Below are positions 10,910 to 30,985 of a stretch of 32,069 bases of DNA, piece after piece; within the stretch, counting starts at the first letter, position 1, and every line of letters starts with the position of its first letter. This DNA comes from Cyclobacteriaceae bacterium (GTDB lineage: Bacteria > Bacteroidota > Bacteroidia > Cytophagales > Cyclobacteriaceae), in the NCBI GenBank assembly GCA_029858965.1, contig JAOUDZ010000042.1:1-32069 (forward strand), given 5' to 3'. The position numbers and the translations under genes are program-made. Below the pieces are notes generated by a model, which saw only the letters and a program-made list of their open reading frames with translations, had not been told where the DNA came from and did not search any database.

Positions 10910-11788
10910 TTAGGCAAAAAGATCTGAACTGAGGTAGCGGTCTCCCCTGTCGCATACGATAAAGACGATCACGCCAGCATCAATTTCATCTGCTATTTTC
11001 AAGGCAGCACACAACGCCCCTCCACTGCTCATTCCTGCCAGAATGCCTTCTTCCCGCGCCAGCCGCTTTGTAAACGTGCGCGCATCTTCTTCGCTTATAT
11101 CTATCGTTCGGTCAACGCGCTTCGCCTCAAAGATCTTTGGTAAGAATTCCGGTGACCATCGCCGGATACCTGGAATAGAAGAACCTTCGGTAGGCTGCGT
11201 GCCAACGATTTGAATCTGTGGATTTTGCTCTTTCAGAAATCTCGAAACACCCATAATCGTACCGGTCGTTCCCATTGCGGAAACAAAGTGTGTCACCTTT
11301 CCTTTCGTCTCGCGCCAAATCTCCGGACCGGTAGTTTTATAGTGCATCGCATAGTTGTCAGGGTTAGCAAACTGATCCAGCATATAGTACCCCTGCTTAA
11401 CCGACATCTCCTCGGCCACTTCACGGGAGTATTCAATGGTGCGCGCTGAAGGGGTTAAAATTACTTTGGCGCCGTAAGCCTCCATAGCCAGAACGCGTTC
11501 CCGGGTGGAATTGTCAGGCATTATGAGTGTCATCTCCAATCCCATTATCCGCGCGATCATGGCCAGGGCAATACCGGTGTTTCCGCTTGTCGCTTCCACC
11601 AATTTATCTCCCTTCTTAATAACCCCTCGGTCAAGCGCAGCTGAAATCATCCCATAGGCTGCCCGATCTTTCACGCTACCACCGGGGTTATTACCTTCCA
11701 GCTTGCCGTAAAGGGTTACGCCTTTTTTGGTAGGGATATGCTGCAGTTCTACAAGCGGGGTATTGCCAATTAATTCCGATAGTTTCAT
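10910..11788 (-). CDS. cysM: cysteine synthase B (O-acetylserine sulfhydrylase, CysM type)
   Basis: A PLP enzyme that makes cysteine from O-acetylserine and sulfide (CysM types also accept thiosulfate). From ATG 11788 it has 292 residues. PLP-binding K40 sits in GGSVKDRAA, followed by the TSGNTGIALA substrate loop, the GTTGTIMGVSRF phosphate loop and the SSGGA motif. The segment TEGSSIPGIRRW is characteristic of CysM rather than CysK. The frame is open further upstream to 11848, but 11788 is preferred because the family starts MKLSELIGNTPL and a clear AAGGAGATAT ribosome-binding site lies just before it. It is downstream of cysE, 144 bp away, with a 20-bp palindrome between them. Confidence 0.95.
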   Translation of the reverse strand: MKLSELIGNTPLVELQHIPTKKGVTLYGKLEGNNPGGSVKDRAAYGMISAALDRGVIKKGDKLVEATSGNTGIALAMIARIMGLEMTLIMPDNSTRERVLAMEAYGAKVILTPSARTIEYSREVAEEMSVKQGYYMLDQFANPDNYAMHYKTTGPEIWRETKGKVTHFVSAMGTTGTIMGVSRFLKEQNPQIQIVGTQPTEGSSIPGIRRWSPEFLPKIFEAKRVDRTIDISEEDARTFTKRLAREEGILAGMSSGGALCAALKIADEIDAGVIVFIVCDRGDRYLSSDLFA

Positions 11789-11868
11789 GTTTATATCTCC
11801 TTGTCCTTTACCCAACCGTAATTTATTTCTCACCAGCTTTCTATCCATTGAGCAGGAGCGCGGACTTA

Positions 11869-11888
11869 GGACGCATAATTATGCGTCC
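11869..11888. promoter_or_regulatory. perfect 20-bp palindrome between cysE and cysM
   Basis: GGACGCATAATTATGCGTCC is a perfect, loop-less inverted repeat of 10+10 bases. It lies 44 bases after the cysE stop and 80 bases before the cysM start. The perfect dyad symmetry without a spacer fits an operator for a homodimeric regulator. A terminator is less likely because no T-run follows on either strand. Which protein binds it is unknown. Confidence 0.45.
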
Positions 11889-11932
11889 CAACAAATTTGC
11901 CTACGAACTTTGAAGCTGCTCTAAAAGAGGTA

Positions 11933-12772
11933 CTATTGGTGTCCCTCCTTAAAAATTACAAGGTCAATTTCGTTCGTATTTCCATTGTACATCCTTGCCT
12001 GGTAATATATTTTTGAATTGGCCGGAATACTGCTCGTCAGCCATACATTTCCACCAACCACACTGCCGCGTCCAATGACAGTTTCTCCGCCTAAAATCGT
12101 TGCTCCTGCATATACTATCACATGATCTTCTAATGTTGGATGCCGTTTTTTCTCTGCATCCTCTTTATTTACGCTTAGCGCTCCAAGGGTTACGCCCTGG
12201 TATATCTTAACATGGTTGCCGATCACGGATGTCTCCCCGATCACCACGCCTGTTCCGTGGTCGATGCAAAAATGATCTCCGATTTTGGCAGCCGGATGAA
12301 TGTCAATACCCGTCTTGCTATGCGCATGTTCCGTAATAATTCTGGGAATACCCTGAACGCCTAAGCTATGCAACGCATGGGCAATCCGATACGCGGCTAT
12401 CGCATAGAATCCCGGATAGGTGCGCACCACTTCATTTCTACTCTTGGCAGCCGGATCCCCTTCATACATTGCGGCGATGTCTTTTTCAAGCTTATCACAA
12501 ATGAATGGAAGTTCCTTGAAAAAATTGTCCCTCAGCTGGGCAGGATTTCCAGTTCCTTTTGTAGGATTATGGCGCAGAATCCGTTCCAATTCCTTCTCTA
12601 ATCGCTCCATGTACTGCTCAAATTCTGTCTCAGACAAAGATCCTAATTGAGCGAAGTCGGCGAATAGCGCCCCCAATAATTCCACGTAAAAAGCGGAGAC
12701 TTCTGTCGGGGCCGGACAGGTAGGGCATGTCTGGTGTGATTGGTATAGTCGATGAAGAAAATTCTTATCCAT
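11933..12772 (-). CDS. cysE: serine O-acetyltransferase (CysE/EpsC type)
   Basis: A 279-residue enzyme that transfers acetyl from acetyl-CoA to L-serine, making the O-acetylserine used by CysM next door. The N-terminal helical domain (about 1-150) is followed by left-handed hexapeptide repeats: GIDIHPAAKIGDHFCIDHGT, VVIGETSVIGNHVKIYQGVT, then HPTLEDHVIVYAGATILGG. The catalytic His lie in IDHGTGVVIGE and KKRHPTLED. The longer N-terminal domain resembles EpsC-type rather than E. coli CysE. The C-terminus ends EGHQ without the terminal Ile that anchors CysE to CysK, so a stable synthase complex is not predicted. Start is ATG 12772 with AAGGATT before it. Confidence 0.93.
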   Translation of the reverse strand: MDKNFLHRLYQSHQTCPTCPAPTEVSAFYVELLGALFADFAQLGSLSETEFEQYMERLEKELERILRHNPTKGTGNPAQLRDNFFKELPFICDKLEKDIAAMYEGDPAAKSRNEVVRTYPGFYAIAAYRIAHALHSLGVQGIPRIITEHAHSKTGIDIHPAAKIGDHFCIDHGTGVVIGETSVIGNHVKIYQGVTLGALSVNKEDAEKKRHPTLEDHVIVYAGATILGGETVIGRGSVVGGNVWLTSSIPANSKIYYQARMYNGNTNEIDLVIFKEGHQ

Positions 12773-26093: not shown

Positions 26094-26446
26094 ATTGCCA
26101 TGTCAAATTGACTCAAAGTATTAGTTTAATCATGATTGCCAAAATGATCCCTGTAATGCGATGACTGTCAAGAGGTACCAGCTCAATCTTACTGATCATT
26201 TTACTGAAATTCCTGTACGGGTAAGTTACGGAAATTAGCCTGAAATTCTGCGGCAATTTTTAAGGCGATATGGTTACCTACTAACCTGGAAATTCATTCA
26301 ACTTTTGAAACTAGGGTTTACAACTATTGTCGACCAACAGAAAGGAAGTTATCAACCGAAAATATTTTGGTTAACTTTAGATACCAACCTAATACTTTGT
26401 GTTACTTTTAATTTAAAATTACATCAAAAGATGAGATCGGATTCAC
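26094..26446. other. divergent intergenic region, 353 bp
   Basis: It separates GH9 (minus) from the SDR-JAMM-UBL-E1 operon (plus) and should contain both promoters. A sequence near the operon, ATACTTTG (about 26393-26400) with a TTTTGG about 30 bases earlier, loosely resembles a Bacteroidota promoter (-7 TAnnTTTG). I see no gene or strong hairpin. Confidence 0.3.
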
Positions 26447-27871
26447 ATGATTGATGATGTATATCGCAAAATTTGGGAGTTGTCCCCGAAAGTACGGGCA
26501 GAAGAATCGTATTTGGAATTAACCAAATTAACGAGAGAGTTAATTGGCTTATATGACTTGCAAGGTAGGCTAAGTTATGATCCATTTAGTCCAACAAGAC
26601 TGAGAAGTCTGAGCCTTCCTTTTGGGAAGATAAACGATTTATTGACGGATCGGACTTGCCTGGTAACCGGTGGGTTAGGATGTGTTGGCTCAACGTTGGT
26701 GAACGAACTTTTAAAATTCGATCTAAAAAACCTCATCATTTTAGATAAGCAAGAGCAGGTATCATCGGGGGCTAATGTAACCTATTCCCCTGTAGACAAG
26801 CCGGGTTCTAAGGTAACCTATGTCACTGCTGACGTACAGGATTTGCAGTCAGTTCAAGGTATCTTTAAGAAATATCGCCCCGATTATGTTTTTCACACCG
26901 CTGCCCAGCGCGATCCAGGATTGGCCGAATTAAAGATTTTTGATACTGTGAGTACAAACGTCATTGGCACGCTTAATATAGTTAAGGCATGTGAATCTTC
27001 AGGTTCGGTAAAACAATGTATCTTCTCTTCAACCGGCAAAGCTAGCAGGTATCTGACGGAAGAGATTTATGCCGGCACCAAGAAGATGTGTGAATATATC
27101 CTTGATGTATATTCCCGAAGAGGTAATGTAAGGTATGGCATGGTTAGGTTTACGCATATCCTCGATAACAGCTTGATGAATATGCAATTAAAGGAAGAGA
27201 GTGAAAGGGATGATTTTATTGCAGTGCATTGCCCCGGCAAATTTGTTACGGCCCAAAATGTCAAGGAAGCTGCTTTTCTTTTAATTAATTCCCTGGTTTA
27301 TTCGGAAGACAAAGTATGCAATTTTCTTATCGTTAAAAATTTGGAATGGCCAGTAGAGAGTCTGGAGATGGCCTTGTATTATATCAAAAACTCAGGCAGA
27401 GCAATACCGGTTATCTTCAGGGGGAATCCCATAGGTTATACGGAGAAGTTTTTCAGAGGTCAGATGAACTGGGCAAGGCCTCAGGATCTTAATTTACTGA
27501 TCAATGTGTATGAAGAGAAGTATAGGAGGCATAACGCGGAAGATGACATTATCATTTCTCATATTTCTCCCGTGAATGAAAAGGTCCTGGGAAGTGTACT
27601 ACAGAAAATAGCAAATTCAACTGGAGATTTGGAGATGAAAGATGCCCTCGTAAGCGGACTGCATGAAATCGTCAGAGATTCGTTAAAATATGTAGACAAA
27701 GAAGACACGGTTAATATTCTAAAATGGGGATTGCATGAAAAATTCCTTGAAATTGAAAAAGCCAAAGCATCTGATTACGGGGCAATTATTCCGCTTATGT
27801 TCGAATCGCTAAGGGGTACACCATACTACGAGCAAGTTGAGAATTTATCCTATGAAAAGGCAACACAATGA
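26447..27871 (+). CDS. FlaA1/CapD-like NAD-dependent nucleotide-sugar epimerase/dehydratase, soluble
   Basis: A 474-residue SDR of the polysaccharide-biosynthesis type. The NAD site is TGGLGCVGS (74-82), followed by ILDKQEQ, YVTADVQDL, HTAAQRDPGL and SSTGKAS. The catalytic pair is Y208/K212 (YAGTK), so unlike some FlaA1/PglF enzymes the Tyr is kept, and the usual STDKA Asp is replaced by Gly. About 65 residues before the Rossmann fold and 90 after it are helical and unassigned. No membrane segments are seen, unlike PglF or WbpM. The family makes 4-keto-6-deoxy or epimerised UDP-sugars. It is 41 bases upstream of the JAMM gene and heads an otherwise sulfur-carrier operon. Confidence 0.88.
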   Translation: MIDDVYRKIWELSPKVRAEESYLELTKLTRELIGLYDLQGRLSYDPFSPTRLRSLSLPFGKINDLLTDRTCLVTGGLGCVGSTLVNELLKFDLKNLIILDKQEQVSSGANVTYSPVDKPGSKVTYVTADVQDLQSVQGIFKKYRPDYVFHTAAQRDPGLAELKIFDTVSTNVIGTLNIVKACESSGSVKQCIFSSTGKASRYLTEEIYAGTKKMCEYILDVYSRRGNVRYGMVRFTHILDNSLMNMQLKEESERDDFIAVHCPGKFVTAQNVKEAAFLLINSLVYSEDKVCNFLIVKNLEWPVESLEMALYYIKNSGRAIPVIFRGNPIGYTEKFFRGQMNWARPQDLNLLINVYEEKYRRHNAEDDIIISHISPVNEKVLGSVLQKIANSTGDLEMKDALVSGLHEIVRDSLKYVDKEDTVNILKWGLHEKFLEIEKAKASDYGAIIPLMFESLRGTPYYEQVENLSYEKATQ

Positions 27872-27912
27872 ATTAGCCAAAGTTCTACTGGAACAATTAA
27901 TATTCAGTTAAA

Positions 27913-28323
27913 ATGCTACGCATAAATAGTGCTCTTTTGGAGGAAATTATTGCAAATGTTGAACACTTCTCTGATGAATGCTGTGGATTCCTTTTTGGTC
28001 ATGATATGTACGGAGATCGTACCCTTACAAAAACCATGGTCGCAAAAAATGTAACACAAGGCGAAAGACACCGAGAATTTGAAATTGCACCATTAGACTA
28101 CCTGAAGGCCGAAAGATTTGCAGAACAAAACAACCTTGCGCTAGTGGGCATATATCACTCTCACCCAAATTGTCCCGCTATACCCTCAGAGCGTGACAGG
28201 TTGTGTGCACAACCGTATTTATCATACATTATCGTCTCCGTTATGAATAATAAGTTTGCAGATATTCGTTCCTGGAGATTAAACGCTGACTTTCAATTTG
28301 AAGAAGAAAAAATTAATAATTAA
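27913..28323 (+). CDS. JAMM/MPN-type metalloprotease (M67 family), predicted UBL-processing enzyme
   Basis: A 136-residue zinc isopeptidase/endopeptidase. The JAMM site is complete: E22 in DECCGFLFG, then H82-S-H84-P in YHSHP, S92 and D95 in SERD. Homologues such as Mec of mycobacteria and QbsD trim ubiquitin-like sulfur carriers or release amino acids from them. The gene is single-domain, without signal peptide, and is followed 24 bases later by the ThiS/MoaD-like gene, whose product has a tail after its GG. That makes this protease the likely maturation enzyme. A role in cleaving carrier conjugates (deubiquitinase-like or Mec-like) is also possible. Confidence 0.93.
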   Translation: MLRINSALLEEIIANVEHFSDECCGFLFGHDMYGDRTLTKTMVAKNVTQGERHREFEIAPLDYLKAERFAEQNNLALVGIYHSHPNCPAIPSERDRLCAQPYLSYIIVSVMNNKFADIRSWRLNADFQFEEEKINN

Positions 28324-28347
28324 AGAATTTGTTAATCTCTAAAATAA

Positions 28348-28638
28348 ATGGCAACTGTATTCATTCCAACCCCGTTACGCAAATTCACAAACAATACCGC
28401 GAAGGTTGAAGCCGAGGGAAACAATGTTTCGGAGGTGGTTAAGGCACTAACGAATAGCTACCCGGAACTCAAAAGGCACCTGGTCAATGCAGATGGAAGA
28501 ATACCATCGTTTATCAACATATTTGTTGGTGACGATGATATCCGCAGCCTTCAGCAGGAACAAACACCCGTTAAAGAAAACAGCCAAATCAGCATCGTCC
28601 CTGCTATTGCTGGGGGCAAGCCAGTTAGTAAATTGTAG
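28348..28638 (+). CDS. ThiS/MoaD-family ubiquitin-like sulfur carrier with C-terminal tail
   Basis: A 96-residue beta-grasp protein. The start MATVFIPTPLRKF and the end SIVPAIAGG match the MoaD/ThiS/CysO group. The diglycine is at 89-90 and is followed by six residues (KPVSKL), so it is a pro-form: the tail must be cut before the C-terminal Gly can be adenylated and turned into a thiocarboxylate. The protease needed is encoded just upstream and the activating enzyme 3 bases downstream. Which acceptor receives the sulfur is unknown. A CysO-like role in cysteine synthesis is one option, but the CysM in this window is of the OAS/sulfide type and is located 17 kb away. Confidence 0.95.
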   Translation: MATVFIPTPLRKFTNNTAKVEAEGNNVSEVVKALTNSYPELKRHLVNADGRIPSFINIFVGDDDIRSLQQEQTPVKENSQISIVPAIAGGKPVSKL

Positions 28639-28641
28639 TCT

Positions 28642-29802
28642 ATGAATCACGAGCATATTCAGTTCTCCAGGGAAGAACTATCCCGCTATAACCGTCACAT
28701 CATTATTCCGGAGTTTGGACTGGAAGCACAGCAAAAATTAAAAGCCGCTAAGGTGCTTGTAGTAGGCTCCGGAGGATTGGGCAGCCCGGTTTTACTATAC
28801 CTCACAGCGGCCGGCGTCGGAACTATTGGTATAGTAGATTTTGATGTTGTCGACGATAGCAACCTCCAGCGCCAGGTTCTTTTTGGTGTAACAGAAGTAG
28901 GGCAGCCTAAAGTTGAAGCCGCAAAGCGAAGACTTCAATCACTAAATCCTCACATTAAGCTTAACATATACAACACGCAACTCACGTCAAAAAACGCATT
29001 GTCCCTTATTCAGGAATATGACGTGGTTGCAGATGGTACTGACAATTTCCCAACGCGATATTTGGTCAACGATGCCTGCGTTTTGCTGGGCAAGACCAAC
29101 GTGTACGCTTCTATATTTCAATTTGAAGGCCAGCTTTCGGTTTTCAATTATCGTCACAGCAATGGCGCCTTTGGACCCAACTACCGCGACTTGTACGCTA
29201 CCCCTCCCCCGGCCGGCCTCGTACCAAGTTGCGCCGAAGGCGGTGTGCTTGGTGTCTTGCCGGGCATCCTGGGAAGTTTACAGGCATTGGAGGTTATCAA
29301 AGTTATTACGGGTGTGGGAGAAGTGATGAGTGGTCGCTTTTATAGTTTCGATGCACTGACTTTTGAATCGCGAACGTTTAACATTAGACGCAACCCCGCC
29401 AACCCGCTGAATGGCGATAATCCAACGCTTAAAGAGCTCATTGACTACGAGCAATTTTGCGGAGTAAGAGCCGTGGAGAAAAGAATCAAGGAAATAGACG
29501 CCATAGAGTTCAACGATTGGCAGCAACGTGGCGAAGACTTCCAGCTTATTGATGTCCGTGAACCACACGAATATGAAATCGTAAATATTGGAGCCCTACT
29601 TATTCCCCTGGGAACGGTTCTGGCAAATGTAGACAGGATTGACCGGAACAGGAAAGTTGTCGTACAGTGTAAAACAGGAAACCGGAGTGGCAAGGCCATT
29701 CGGGAATTAGAAGAGAAGTTTGGCTTCGAGAACCTCTACAATCTCAAAGGAGGGATTCTAGGTTATATTGATGATATCAAACCGGAACTTACAAAGTATT
29801 AA
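28642..29802 (+). CDS. MoeZ-type adenylyltransferase (E1-like ThiF domain) fused to rhodanese
   Basis: A 386-residue sulfur-carrier activating enzyme. The E1/ThiF domain (about 10-250) has GSGGLG (42-47) for ATP, FDVVDDSNLQRQ, ADGTDNFPTRYLVND and the conserved Cys197 in VPSCAEGGVLG. The C-terminal rhodanese domain (about 285-384) has active-site C343 in the CKTGNRS loop, which supplies sulfur as persulfide. The four zinc Cys of MoeB/MOCS3 are missing (NYRDLYATPPP and NPANPLNG instead of CxxC), as in mycobacterial MoeZ. It adenylates the carrier encoded 3 bases upstream and then sulfurates it. It is the last gene of the operon. Confidence 0.95.
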   Translation: MNHEHIQFSREELSRYNRHIIIPEFGLEAQQKLKAAKVLVVGSGGLGSPVLLYLTAAGVGTIGIVDFDVVDDSNLQRQVLFGVTEVGQPKVEAAKRRLQSLNPHIKLNIYNTQLTSKNALSLIQEYDVVADGTDNFPTRYLVNDACVLLGKTNVYASIFQFEGQLSVFNYRHSNGAFGPNYRDLYATPPPAGLVPSCAEGGVLGVLPGILGSLQALEVIKVITGVGEVMSGRFYSFDALTFESRTFNIRRNPANPLNGDNPTLKELIDYEQFCGVRAVEKRIKEIDAIEFNDWQQRGEDFQLIDVREPHEYEIVNIGALLIPLGTVLANVDRIDRNRKVVVQCKTGNRSGKAIRELEEKFGFENLYNLKGGILGYIDDIKPELTKY

Positions 29803-29824
29803 GGTTGGCAACACCTCGAATCGC

Positions 29825-30985
29825 TTACGGACCGTTCTTGTTCCAATATATTTTTAAATTGTGGGAAGACCTTCCCGCCGCAATAATATCTTTCTTGCCA
29901 TCCCCATTAAGATCGGCAAGTTGCAGGTCTTCACATGCCATGCCATTGTTATCGATCCAGTAATCTTTCCAGGAACTACCCTCAGCATCTAGCGCTACAA
30001 ACAGTTTTATACCCACTTTTTTCTCCTGATTCGGTTCCCGCCAGCCAACAACAATCTGGTCAGTTCCCAAGGCGAGCAGATCAGAAATACCCAATGCATG
30101 ACCCTGATTAAGCTCGGAGGTTATTACCACTCGGGATCCTCCATCATTGAGATTATACCTTGTGAGCAGATTGCCATGCATGGGTTCTATACCTGCCAAG
30201 AATTTCTGTTCTCCACTATTCCCGCCTGCTCGTATTTCTCCAAAACTATTTCCATGCACGAACCAGGCTCCCGCTGAATTGGATAACCATTTACCGCCCT
30301 CAAAGTATAATATCTTTATGCCTTCTTTGCCTCCAATGTAAAGCAACTCCCGTTTTCCATCTTCGACCAATTCCATATTATGGGTAAGGTGCATAGATGC
30401 GTCAATAGTCCAATGCTTCCAGTTTTCTCTGATATCCTTTGGCATTTCATAGGCAATTATGTTTACTCCCAGCCCTTCTCCGCCCTTATTACCCCTGCCA
30501 TGAAGTGGCAGCACCACTAATTGATATTCATCCTTTCCTATTTTTACCCAGCGCATTCTGTGAATTGCTGGTTCGTGATGAAGCGCAATGGGTGTCCATT
30601 TCTGCGTTGGATCATTTGGCCTTATTAAGTAGTGCACAGAACCTGATTTTGAGGTATCCGAGGTTTCAGAAGGGTTCCATTGTGCACCTACGGCTACCTC
30701 AACAATACCATCTCCGTCTATATCCCGGGCAGCAATGCACACATTATCCGATTCTGTAAGATTTTCTACCATTACAAATCGCTTCCAGTCTCCATTTCGA
30801 TACCAGACAAATTGCTTTTTGTCGGCCAGCAGGATATCCGGTTTCCGGTCACCATCAACGTCGCCGATTGCCAAACCGTAACCGATAGCAACATTATCAT
30901 CAAGCACTTGCATTTCGAATTTTGGAGAATCGTATGCGCTGAAAAAGAAATGAATAGCAAGCAGGAAAAGGAATGAGGTTGACAT
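29825..30985 (-). CDS. secreted FG-GAP/VCBS-repeat beta-propeller protein
   Basis: About 386 residues with a signal peptide (MSTSFLFLLAIHFFF). Three or more FG-GAP-type repeats carry calcium-binding loops (DVDGDRKPD, DIDGDGIVE, DLNGDGKKD) within a propeller-like sequence; these repeats occur in integrin-like and periplasmic binding proteins of this phylum. No catalytic residues are recognised. The start ATG 30985 is preferred over a TTG frame opening at 31018, because it gives a clean signal peptide and has AGGTG before it. It converges on the MoeZ-type gene with 22 bases between the ends. Function unknown. Confidence 0.85.
   Translation of the reverse strand: MSTSFLFLLAIHFFFSAYDSPKFEMQVLDDNVAIGYGLAIGDVDGDRKPDILLADKKQFVWYRNGDWKRFVMVENLTESDNVCIAARDIDGDGIVEVAVGAQWNPSETSDTSKSGSVHYLIRPNDPTQKWTPIALHHEPAIHRMRWVKIGKDEYQLVVLPLHGRGNKGGEGLGVNIIAYEMPKDIRENWKHWTIDASMHLTHNMELVEDGKRELLYIGGKEGIKILYFEGGKWLSNSAGAWFVHGNSFGEIRAGGNSGEQKFLAGIEPMHGNLLTRYNLNDGGSRVVITSELNQGHALGISDLLALGTDQIVVGWREPNQEKKVGIKLFVALDAEGSSWKDYWIDNNGMACEDLQLADLNGDGKKDIIAAGRSSHNLKIYWNKNGP

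Follow-up and report, generated by a model that had tools for sequence, protein, structure and literature searches.

What is a sugar-nucleotide enzyme doing at the head of an operon for protein-borne sulfur? The question is raised by a stretch of 32,069 nucleotides (the window; contig JAOUDZ010000042.1 of the Cyclobacteriaceae bacterium assembly GCA_029858965.1, phylum Bacteroidota) in which four plus-strand genes encode, in order, a short-chain dehydrogenase/reductase (SDR), a JAMM-type peptidase, a ubiquitin-like (UBL) sulfur carrier and an E1 adenylyltransferase fused to a rhodanese. An earlier note, made from the letters of this DNA alone, had read the four as one operon and had suggested a thiosugar or another thio-product. 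The open reading frames (ORFs) with their exact positions, their domains and the recomputed intergenic distances of 41 bp (SDR/JAMM), 24 bp (JAMM/UBL) and 3 bp (UBL/E1) all reproduced that layout. Comparison with other genomes makes it rather likely, if far from certain, that the operon delivers sulfur as a dedicated module, with the nucleotide-sugar-type SDR as its end user instead of the cysteine synthase CysM, the acceptor being most likely a cytidine diphosphate (CDP) sugar from a gene set comprising RfbF, an SDR of ~350 aa (SDR350), RmlC and DRL.

A contig search with the window SDR alone found two relatives, in Pedobacter sp. MR2016-24 (L004) and Algoriphagus aestuariicola (L005), whose best segments were 55% and 53% identical to it. 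A profile built from the three proteins (profile A1) detected 16/390 genomes of the family at E<=1e-60, the window's own genome included. In the order it matched 146/390 genomes at 1e-20, at full length only in the own genome and in G639, the remaining matches scoring at most 100 bits and lying on the Rossmann part. A single-sequence search of a phylum sample of 395 genomes returned only the own copy at full length, and the three other matches at 1e-20 were ORFs of ~650 aa with 27-30% identity. The own genome, 15 others of the family, Pedobacter and Algoriphagus thus make up 18 SDR loci, with members 43-62% identical to the window SDR. UBL and E1 lie directly downstream of the SDR in 18/18 loci and JAMM stands between in 16/18, the two without it in the operon being L156 (genome G889) and L158 (G874). 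The 15 family loci were picked by the SDR profile alone, and UBL and E1 adjoin the SDR in every one of them. The flanks outside the module were mostly unlike, save for sugar genes and for gene runs common to pairs of loci. The neighbourhood comparison proposed in the earlier note has come out partly in its favour, and the SDR as an accidental neighbour is ruled out by the 18 loci with UBL and E1 downstream.

The usual partner of the module in the phylum proved to be a different enzyme. A UBL profile matched 50/395 phylum genomes at 1e-8, and one locus was taken from each of 37 genomes with a strong UBL match, 11 genomes being left out. CysM genes were identified with a profile of five sequences that Pfam confirms as PALP, and distances were measured from centre to centre. 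A CysM-type gene was found within 3 kb in 27 of the 37 JAMM-UBL-E1 loci and further off in the piece in four, while six had none; none of the 37 had a window-type SDR at 1e-40. Conversely, CysM was absent within 8 kb in 18/18 SDR loci, where the pieces extend that far. The gene order of Bacteroidota cysM operons is that of the window operon, with cysM in the position of the SDR. Because CysM and SDR exclude each other in this way, the SDR is seen to occupy the CysM slot, with the same sulfur supply and a different acceptor enzyme. The earlier note had weighed its sugar reading against cysteine synthesis of the Mec/CysO/CysM type: the pairing with cysM elsewhere is real, but within its lineage the SDR is a constant partner, and its operon stands apart from cysM.

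The window does contain a cysM, of the ordinary kind, which stands beside a cysE-like gene ~14 kb from the carrier operon and passes ordinary CysM cut-offs. It is the best of eight PALP genes in the own genome, none of which scores as a carrier-type CysM on the profile; it reaches 281 bits, against 392-589 for the carrier-linked CysMs of 31 loci, five of which had built the profile. Two CysM-type rows (L081, L082) are placed among SDR-type ones in an E1 tree of 57 proteins, although local support there is weak, and a single SDR clade was rejected (p-AU 0.022, two rows having been dropped beforehand), a pattern which suggests that the partner may have been exchanged more than once. Transfer of E1 alone would give the same pattern. 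In two genomes (L105 and L110, of G338 and G079) CysM lies beside two different JAMM-like genes with a fused UBL-E1 a few genes away, which is a rearranged variant of the cysteine operon.

A link between the SDR and nucleotide-sugar genes emerged from the flanks. Clustering of the neighbours of the SDR loci brought out four recurring genes. RfbF is a glucose-1-phosphate cytidylyltransferase, the L080 copy scoring 435 bits against an NCBIfam equivalog cut-off of 300, and the RmlC of L080 passes its own equivalog cut-off (176 bits; cut-off 156). SDR350 is epimerase-like and has in the 11 copies compared an SSCS(M/I/V)YG motif, of a type typical of epimerases rather than 4,6-dehydratases. The fourth is a DRL-type oxidoreductase with the Pfam domain DRL_cat and 3upy as nearest PDB entry. 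DRL has relatives among the DXR-II/DLO oxidoreductases (PMC3847144), from which one may reasonably guess at a CDP-sugar product that is rearranged or branched. In 9/18 loci, from five genera, the RmlC-DRL pair lies next to the SDR operon, either just upstream on the same strand (L080, L149) or divergent from the operon (L150, where DRL is broken, L152-L155, L157 and L159). In L151 (G856) RmlC and SDR350 are nearby, with an integrase-type gene between.

Co-occurrence extends beyond adjacency. In the family sample at 1e-60 DRL was present in 44/390 genomes, the SDR in 16 and both in 14, so that DRL was found in 14/16 genomes with the SDR versus 30/374 without it (Fisher 7e-13, ignoring kinship). 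A close DRL subgroup, at least 64% identical to the L080 DRL, comprised 18 genomes, 14 of them with the SDR (Fisher 2e-20, ignoring kinship); the match in one genome of this subgroup, G979, covers 262 residues only. Counted by genus, a DRL at this identity was found in 7/7 SDR genera versus 2/77 others (p 8e-9). The own genome carries the whole set outside the window, on contig C212, beside exopolysaccharide genes that include a bacterial sugar transferase and a Wzc-like protein matching GNVR and AAA_31. In Pedobacter the set is found on contig C18 and the SDR operon on C15. In G889 the set begins on the SDR contig, with DRL ~27 kb from the SDR. At two distant DRL loci (L202 and L203, 52-54% identical) the same profiles found no RfbF, RmlC or SDR350, so that DRL alone is no marker of the set. 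In G839 two DRL copies of opposite orientation surround a 398-aa gene (L199 6837-10898), and a gene of like size beside the own-genome DRL is a FAD-dependent oxidoreductase by Pfam.

The SDR itself is of the extended nucleotide-sugar type (Polysacc_synt_2, E 1.3e-27). Its Pfam matches all lie within residues 68-239, the best covering 72-239, and a PDB profile search with the C-terminal ~110 residues gave nothing (best E 0.87), which agrees with the earlier description of the flanking parts as unassigned. HMMER alignments place its STGKA on the dehydratase STDKA of PglF and WlaL, so that the substitution of Gly for Asp noticed in the window is confirmed; it is invariant in 18/18 members, as are S195, T196, G197, K198, Y208, K212 and the glycine motif. 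In the PglF/FlaA1 motif this Asp is the general acid for the loss of water in dehydration, and the titles of PglF variants in the PDB name D396 and K397 as a mutated pair. An ordinary 4,6-dehydratase is ruled out, the catalytic Asp being absent throughout the family while the Lys and the Tyr of YxxxK are retained. Hypothetically, the SDR would retain the means for a 4-keto intermediate and for proton uptake without the acid for water loss. It did not reach the PseB equivalog cut-off of NCBIfam (56.8 bits; cut-off 407.75).

Relatives of the SDR were also sought on mobile elements. A scan of viral contigs gave 10 loci, of which the best two (L010, L011) were 31% identical and the other eight short matches. 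The SDRs of these two (L010 5016-6143, 375 aa; L011 4965-6239, 424 aa) share the STGKA motif and lie near a gene that reads by eye like a GT2 glycosyltransferase. JAMM, UBL and E1 were absent from the flanks examined, so that the STGKA type of SDR exists apart from the sulfur module. The L011 SDR used as a query against phages and plasmids found nothing at 1e-20. The window SDR found no plasmid match at 1e-30; at 1e-12 there were 20 records, all with a query coverage below 80%, and among the ten records shown identities were 25-29% and six were annotated as nucleoside-diphosphate sugar epimerase/dehydratase. Cargo of a plasmid or phage was rejected, since the plasmid matches are distant and partial and the two viral relatives examined have no module in their flanks.

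The three sulfur-transfer proteins gave clear Pfam matches (JAMM, Prok-JAB 6.2e-21; UBL, ThiS 1e-11; E1, ThiF 2.1e-77 and Rhodanese 3.5e-11). Residues E22, H82, H84, S92 and D95 of JAMM are invariant in 17/17 members, counting the copy of G874, which is absent from the operon and stands beside RmlC-DRL. The same holds in 18/18 for G89-G90 of UBL and for C197 and C343 of E1, the latter in CKTGNRS in the window. With catalytic residues invariant across family members, there is no sign of a dead gene among the four of the operon. The window E1 did not reach the MoeZ equivalog cut-off of NCBIfam. A promoter and terminator scan of positions 26100-30000 was uninformative (13 promoters versus 8.8 expected, four terminators versus 3.2).

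Most of the carriers are capped. Among the 18 SDR loci the UBL is fused to E1 in 12, carries a short tail beyond GG in four, as in the window (Table 1), and ends at GG in two (L149, L156), making 16/18 capped by tail or fusion. In G889 (L156) there is no dedicated JAMM and the carrier is uncapped; PF14464 matches this genome only weakly, in two ORFs of more than 460 aa (L221 and L222 on contig C100, 466-469 aa, ~5 kb apart). JAMM probably uncaps the carrier, because the GG end is uncapped in the single genome where a dedicated JAMM is missing. A capped carrier that requires a protease is established for QbsD (PMC6006322), and Iyer et al. foresaw the cleavage of fused carriers (PMC1779556).

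Table 1. Features of the window discussed in the text
Feature	Position	Strand	Remarks
SDR, FlaA1/CapD/PglF-like extended, 474 aa	26447..27871	+	STGKAS where STDKA stands elsewhere; ORF, Pfam
JAMM/Prok-JAB peptidase, 136 aa	27913..28323	+	ORF, Pfam, invariant residues
ThiS/MoaD/CysO-like sulfur carrier (UBL), 96 aa	28348..28638	+	C-terminus PAIAGG-KPVSKL, capped by a 6-residue tail beyond GG
Six-codon cap KPVSKL 3' of carrier GG codons	28618..28635	+	expected JAMM cut site, inferred from QbsD (PMC6006322)
MoeZ-like E1 adenylyltransferase fused to rhodanese, 386 aa	28642..29802	+	ORF, Pfam
cysM (10910-11848) and cysE-like gene (11933-12772)	10910..12772	-	ordinary cysteine synthesis, outside operon, context only

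How the parts might work together can be sketched from homologs for the sulfur supply and hypothetically for its use. JAMM would remove the cap, or the fused E1, from the UBL and so expose GG. E1 would then adenylate the UBL glycine and the rhodanese domain would give persulfide sulfur, yielding a UBL-thiocarboxylate as formed by the MoeZ/CysO homologs (PMC3227635). Using NAD(P), the SDR might oxidise C4 of a sugar nucleotide, K198 taking a neighbouring proton, and the UBL-thiocarboxylate might supply the sulfur nucleophile; the lost Asp would leave space near the reacting carbon for the GG tail of the carrier. Hydrolysis of the thioester would release free UBL and a thiosugar nucleotide, which might be destined for extracellular polysaccharide. 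A sugar is the likely acceptor on these sequence grounds, and we infer that the sulfur passes to a CDP-sugar-derived product. The fuller proposal, which is offered tentatively and may well be wrong, is a carrier-protein-dependent thiosugar pathway for exopolysaccharide in which CDP-glucose is reworked by SDR350, RmlC and the DXR-like DRL, the STGKA SDR takes the sulfur of the UBL-thiocarboxylate to give a CDP-thiosugar, and the cysteine module has been re-used through exchange of the acceptor. The thiosugar idea of the earlier note has been strengthened by the 18/18 loci, the lack of cysM and the CDP-sugar link, while the product and the acceptor role are still hypothetical.

Several observations weigh against a CDP-sugar acceptor or against parts of this scheme. 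The set is not adjacent to the operon in the window, Pedobacter, L147, L148, L156, L158 and L160, and it was not found in the flanks examined in Algoriphagus. Two genomes with the SDR have no DRL: G856 keeps RmlC and SDR350 nearby, as noted, and G792 has no DRL genome-wide at 1e-60 and no match to the set in ~46 kb around the operon, DRL alone having been sought genome-wide. Thirty genomes without the SDR have DRL, and four of these (G740, G782, G937, G1075) have a close DRL and the whole set, so that this sugar can be present where the operon is absent. In G937 the set has been kept and still has an E1 at its side (L196 6908-10172); SDR, JAMM and UBL are absent from that piece, and the genome has no JAB and, at 1e-60, no SDR. 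Among solved SDRs the best matches are enzymes of uridine diphosphate N-acetylglucosamine (UDP-GlcNAc), and without the catalytic Asp the SDR could also catalyse some other reaction. The structure model of the SDR is weak (mean pLDDT 57.8, from a three-row alignment), and a Foldseek search with it ranks PglF first, which adds little beyond the sequence. As to the cap, L149 has an uncapped UBL yet retains JAMM and the case without JAMM is a single genome; UBL-E1 fusion also occurs in 16/37 non-SDR loci, and capping is therefore a trait of the module at large and not of the SDR type.

Some of this would suit an acceptor other than a CDP-sugar, with SDR and UBL-thiocarboxylate making another nucleoside-diphosphate thiosugar or a small thiol, while the CDP-sugar set would just tend to share islands with them. 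The non-adjacent loci, the UDP-GlcNAc enzymes and the viral STGKA relatives speak for it; the strong SDR-DRL co-occurrence, the recurrence of adjacency in five genera and two orientations and the JAMM beside the set in G874 speak against it, and we regard it as unlikely, if deserving serious attention. It is improbable that the module still feeds cysteine or other primary sulfur metabolism through a CysM elsewhere, with the SDR as a passenger or regulator: the best PDB matches of the UBL are CysO-like (4n6e and 3dwg, the latter being CysO) and the phylum pairing with CysM points the same way, but the SDR is fixed in all its loci and the CysM beside cysE scores far below the carrier-linked ones.

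Protein conjugation, in which the UBL, once activated by E1, would be linked to proteins (the SDR, for instance) and released again by JAMM, as in small archaeal modifier protein (SAMP) systems or urmylation, finds an echo in the best NCBIfam matches of JAMM (desampylase, 61.6 bits, cut-off 130) and UBL (SAMP1, 50.3 bits, cut-off 60), both below cut-off. The rhodanese domain with its invariant cysteine and an exchange of the slot with a metabolic enzyme make it quite improbable. Pfam shows no E2 in the operon, but SAMP systems are not known to need one. A defence-type ubiquitin system was rejected, PADLOC models matching at domain level only. Mycobacterial MoeZ is common to the molybdenum cofactor (Moco) and cysteine pathways (PMC3227635), and E1 and UBL might similarly serve several pathways (Moco, tRNA or thiamine), their co-location with the SDR being regulatory. 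However, the operon UBL is fused to E1 in 12/18 loci, and the own genome has one other E1, on contig C189, as well as a further ThiS/MoaD-like gene, which lies on C159 in company that by eye reads like Moco genes; this explanation is very improbable. No JAB other than the window JAMM, which is the only PF14464 match, was found in that genome at E<=0.001. The second E1 (L192 3290-5688, with a rhodanese-like end by eye) has no UBL in its piece and adjoins a pyridoxal phosphate (PLP) enzyme reading by eye like a gamma-synthase. A second, divergent UBL adjoins a ~360-aa protein, beta-propeller-like by eye, in two genera (L119 652-2031, from contig C28 of the own genome; L118 7829-9213, from G320); both loci were fetched as weak UBL matches and have neither JAMM nor E1 in the piece.

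The dedicated sulfur-delivery module favoured here shares traits with several described systems. The CysM-CysO-Mec-MoeZ system of Mycobacterium (types 4c/4d of Iyer et al. 2006) has a CysO-type UBL, JAMM and MoeZ-like E1-rhodanese in common with the window operon, which has an NAD(P)-type SDR and no PLP cysteine synthase. The Qbs/Pdt systems of thioquinolobactin and PDTC (type 4a), together with PtmS of thioplatensimycin, share a capped carrier, a JAMM protease and an E1(-rhodanese) (PMC6006322, PMC1779556), but their CaiB-like CoA transferase and AMP-acid ligase are absent from the window operon and the five neighbour genes scanned, where a sugar-type enzyme is found instead. In 2-thiosugar synthesis for BE-7585A a protein thiocarboxylate is likewise the presumed sulfur donor to a sugar (PMC4784017). 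The actinobacterial comparison drawn by the earlier note holds for the sulfur supply only, as no ThiG/BexX homolog was found in the window operon and its five neighbours; the BexX system moreover borrows its carrier and E1, whereas those of the window stand with a candidate acceptor SDR. The UDP-GlcNAc 4,6-dehydratases PglF/FlaA1/CapD share the SDR fold, S-T-x-K, YxxxK and the glycine motif; the window family differs in its Gly and in its extra N- and C-terminal parts. The UDP-sulfoquinovose synthase SQD1 resembles the proposal in principle, being an SDR through which a 4-keto sugar intermediate receives a sulfur nucleophile; it uses sulfite and is not known to need a carrier protein. The corresponding NCBIfam model, UDPsulfquin_syn, matches the window SDR at only 24 bits (cut-off 575).

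Operons of the JAB-UBL-E1 class were described by Iyer et al. with siderophore, cysteine synthase, ClpS and sulfur-metabolism genes as partners (PMC1779556). The window operon has what defines the class, a ThiS/MoaD-like UBL, a JAB and an E1(-rhodanese) in one operon, and fits none of the subtypes 4a-4e as described in the running text of PMC1779556, which, its figures and additional files aside, names no epimerase, dehydrogenase or sugar. An SDR-JAMM-UBL-E1 operon was not found in titles and abstract openings of the open-licence literature, where ThiS was partly matched as the word 'this'. Judged by its gene content, the operon is a new subtype of this known class, with a plausible but putative product. 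The fused UBL-E1 proteins make the uncapping role of JAMM directly testable. If the proposal is true, Bacteroidota polysaccharides would contain sulfur-containing sugars made with an SDR of new chemistry, and the CysO-type sulfur module would be portable, its sulfur recipient being changed by the replacement of one gene in a fixed slot.

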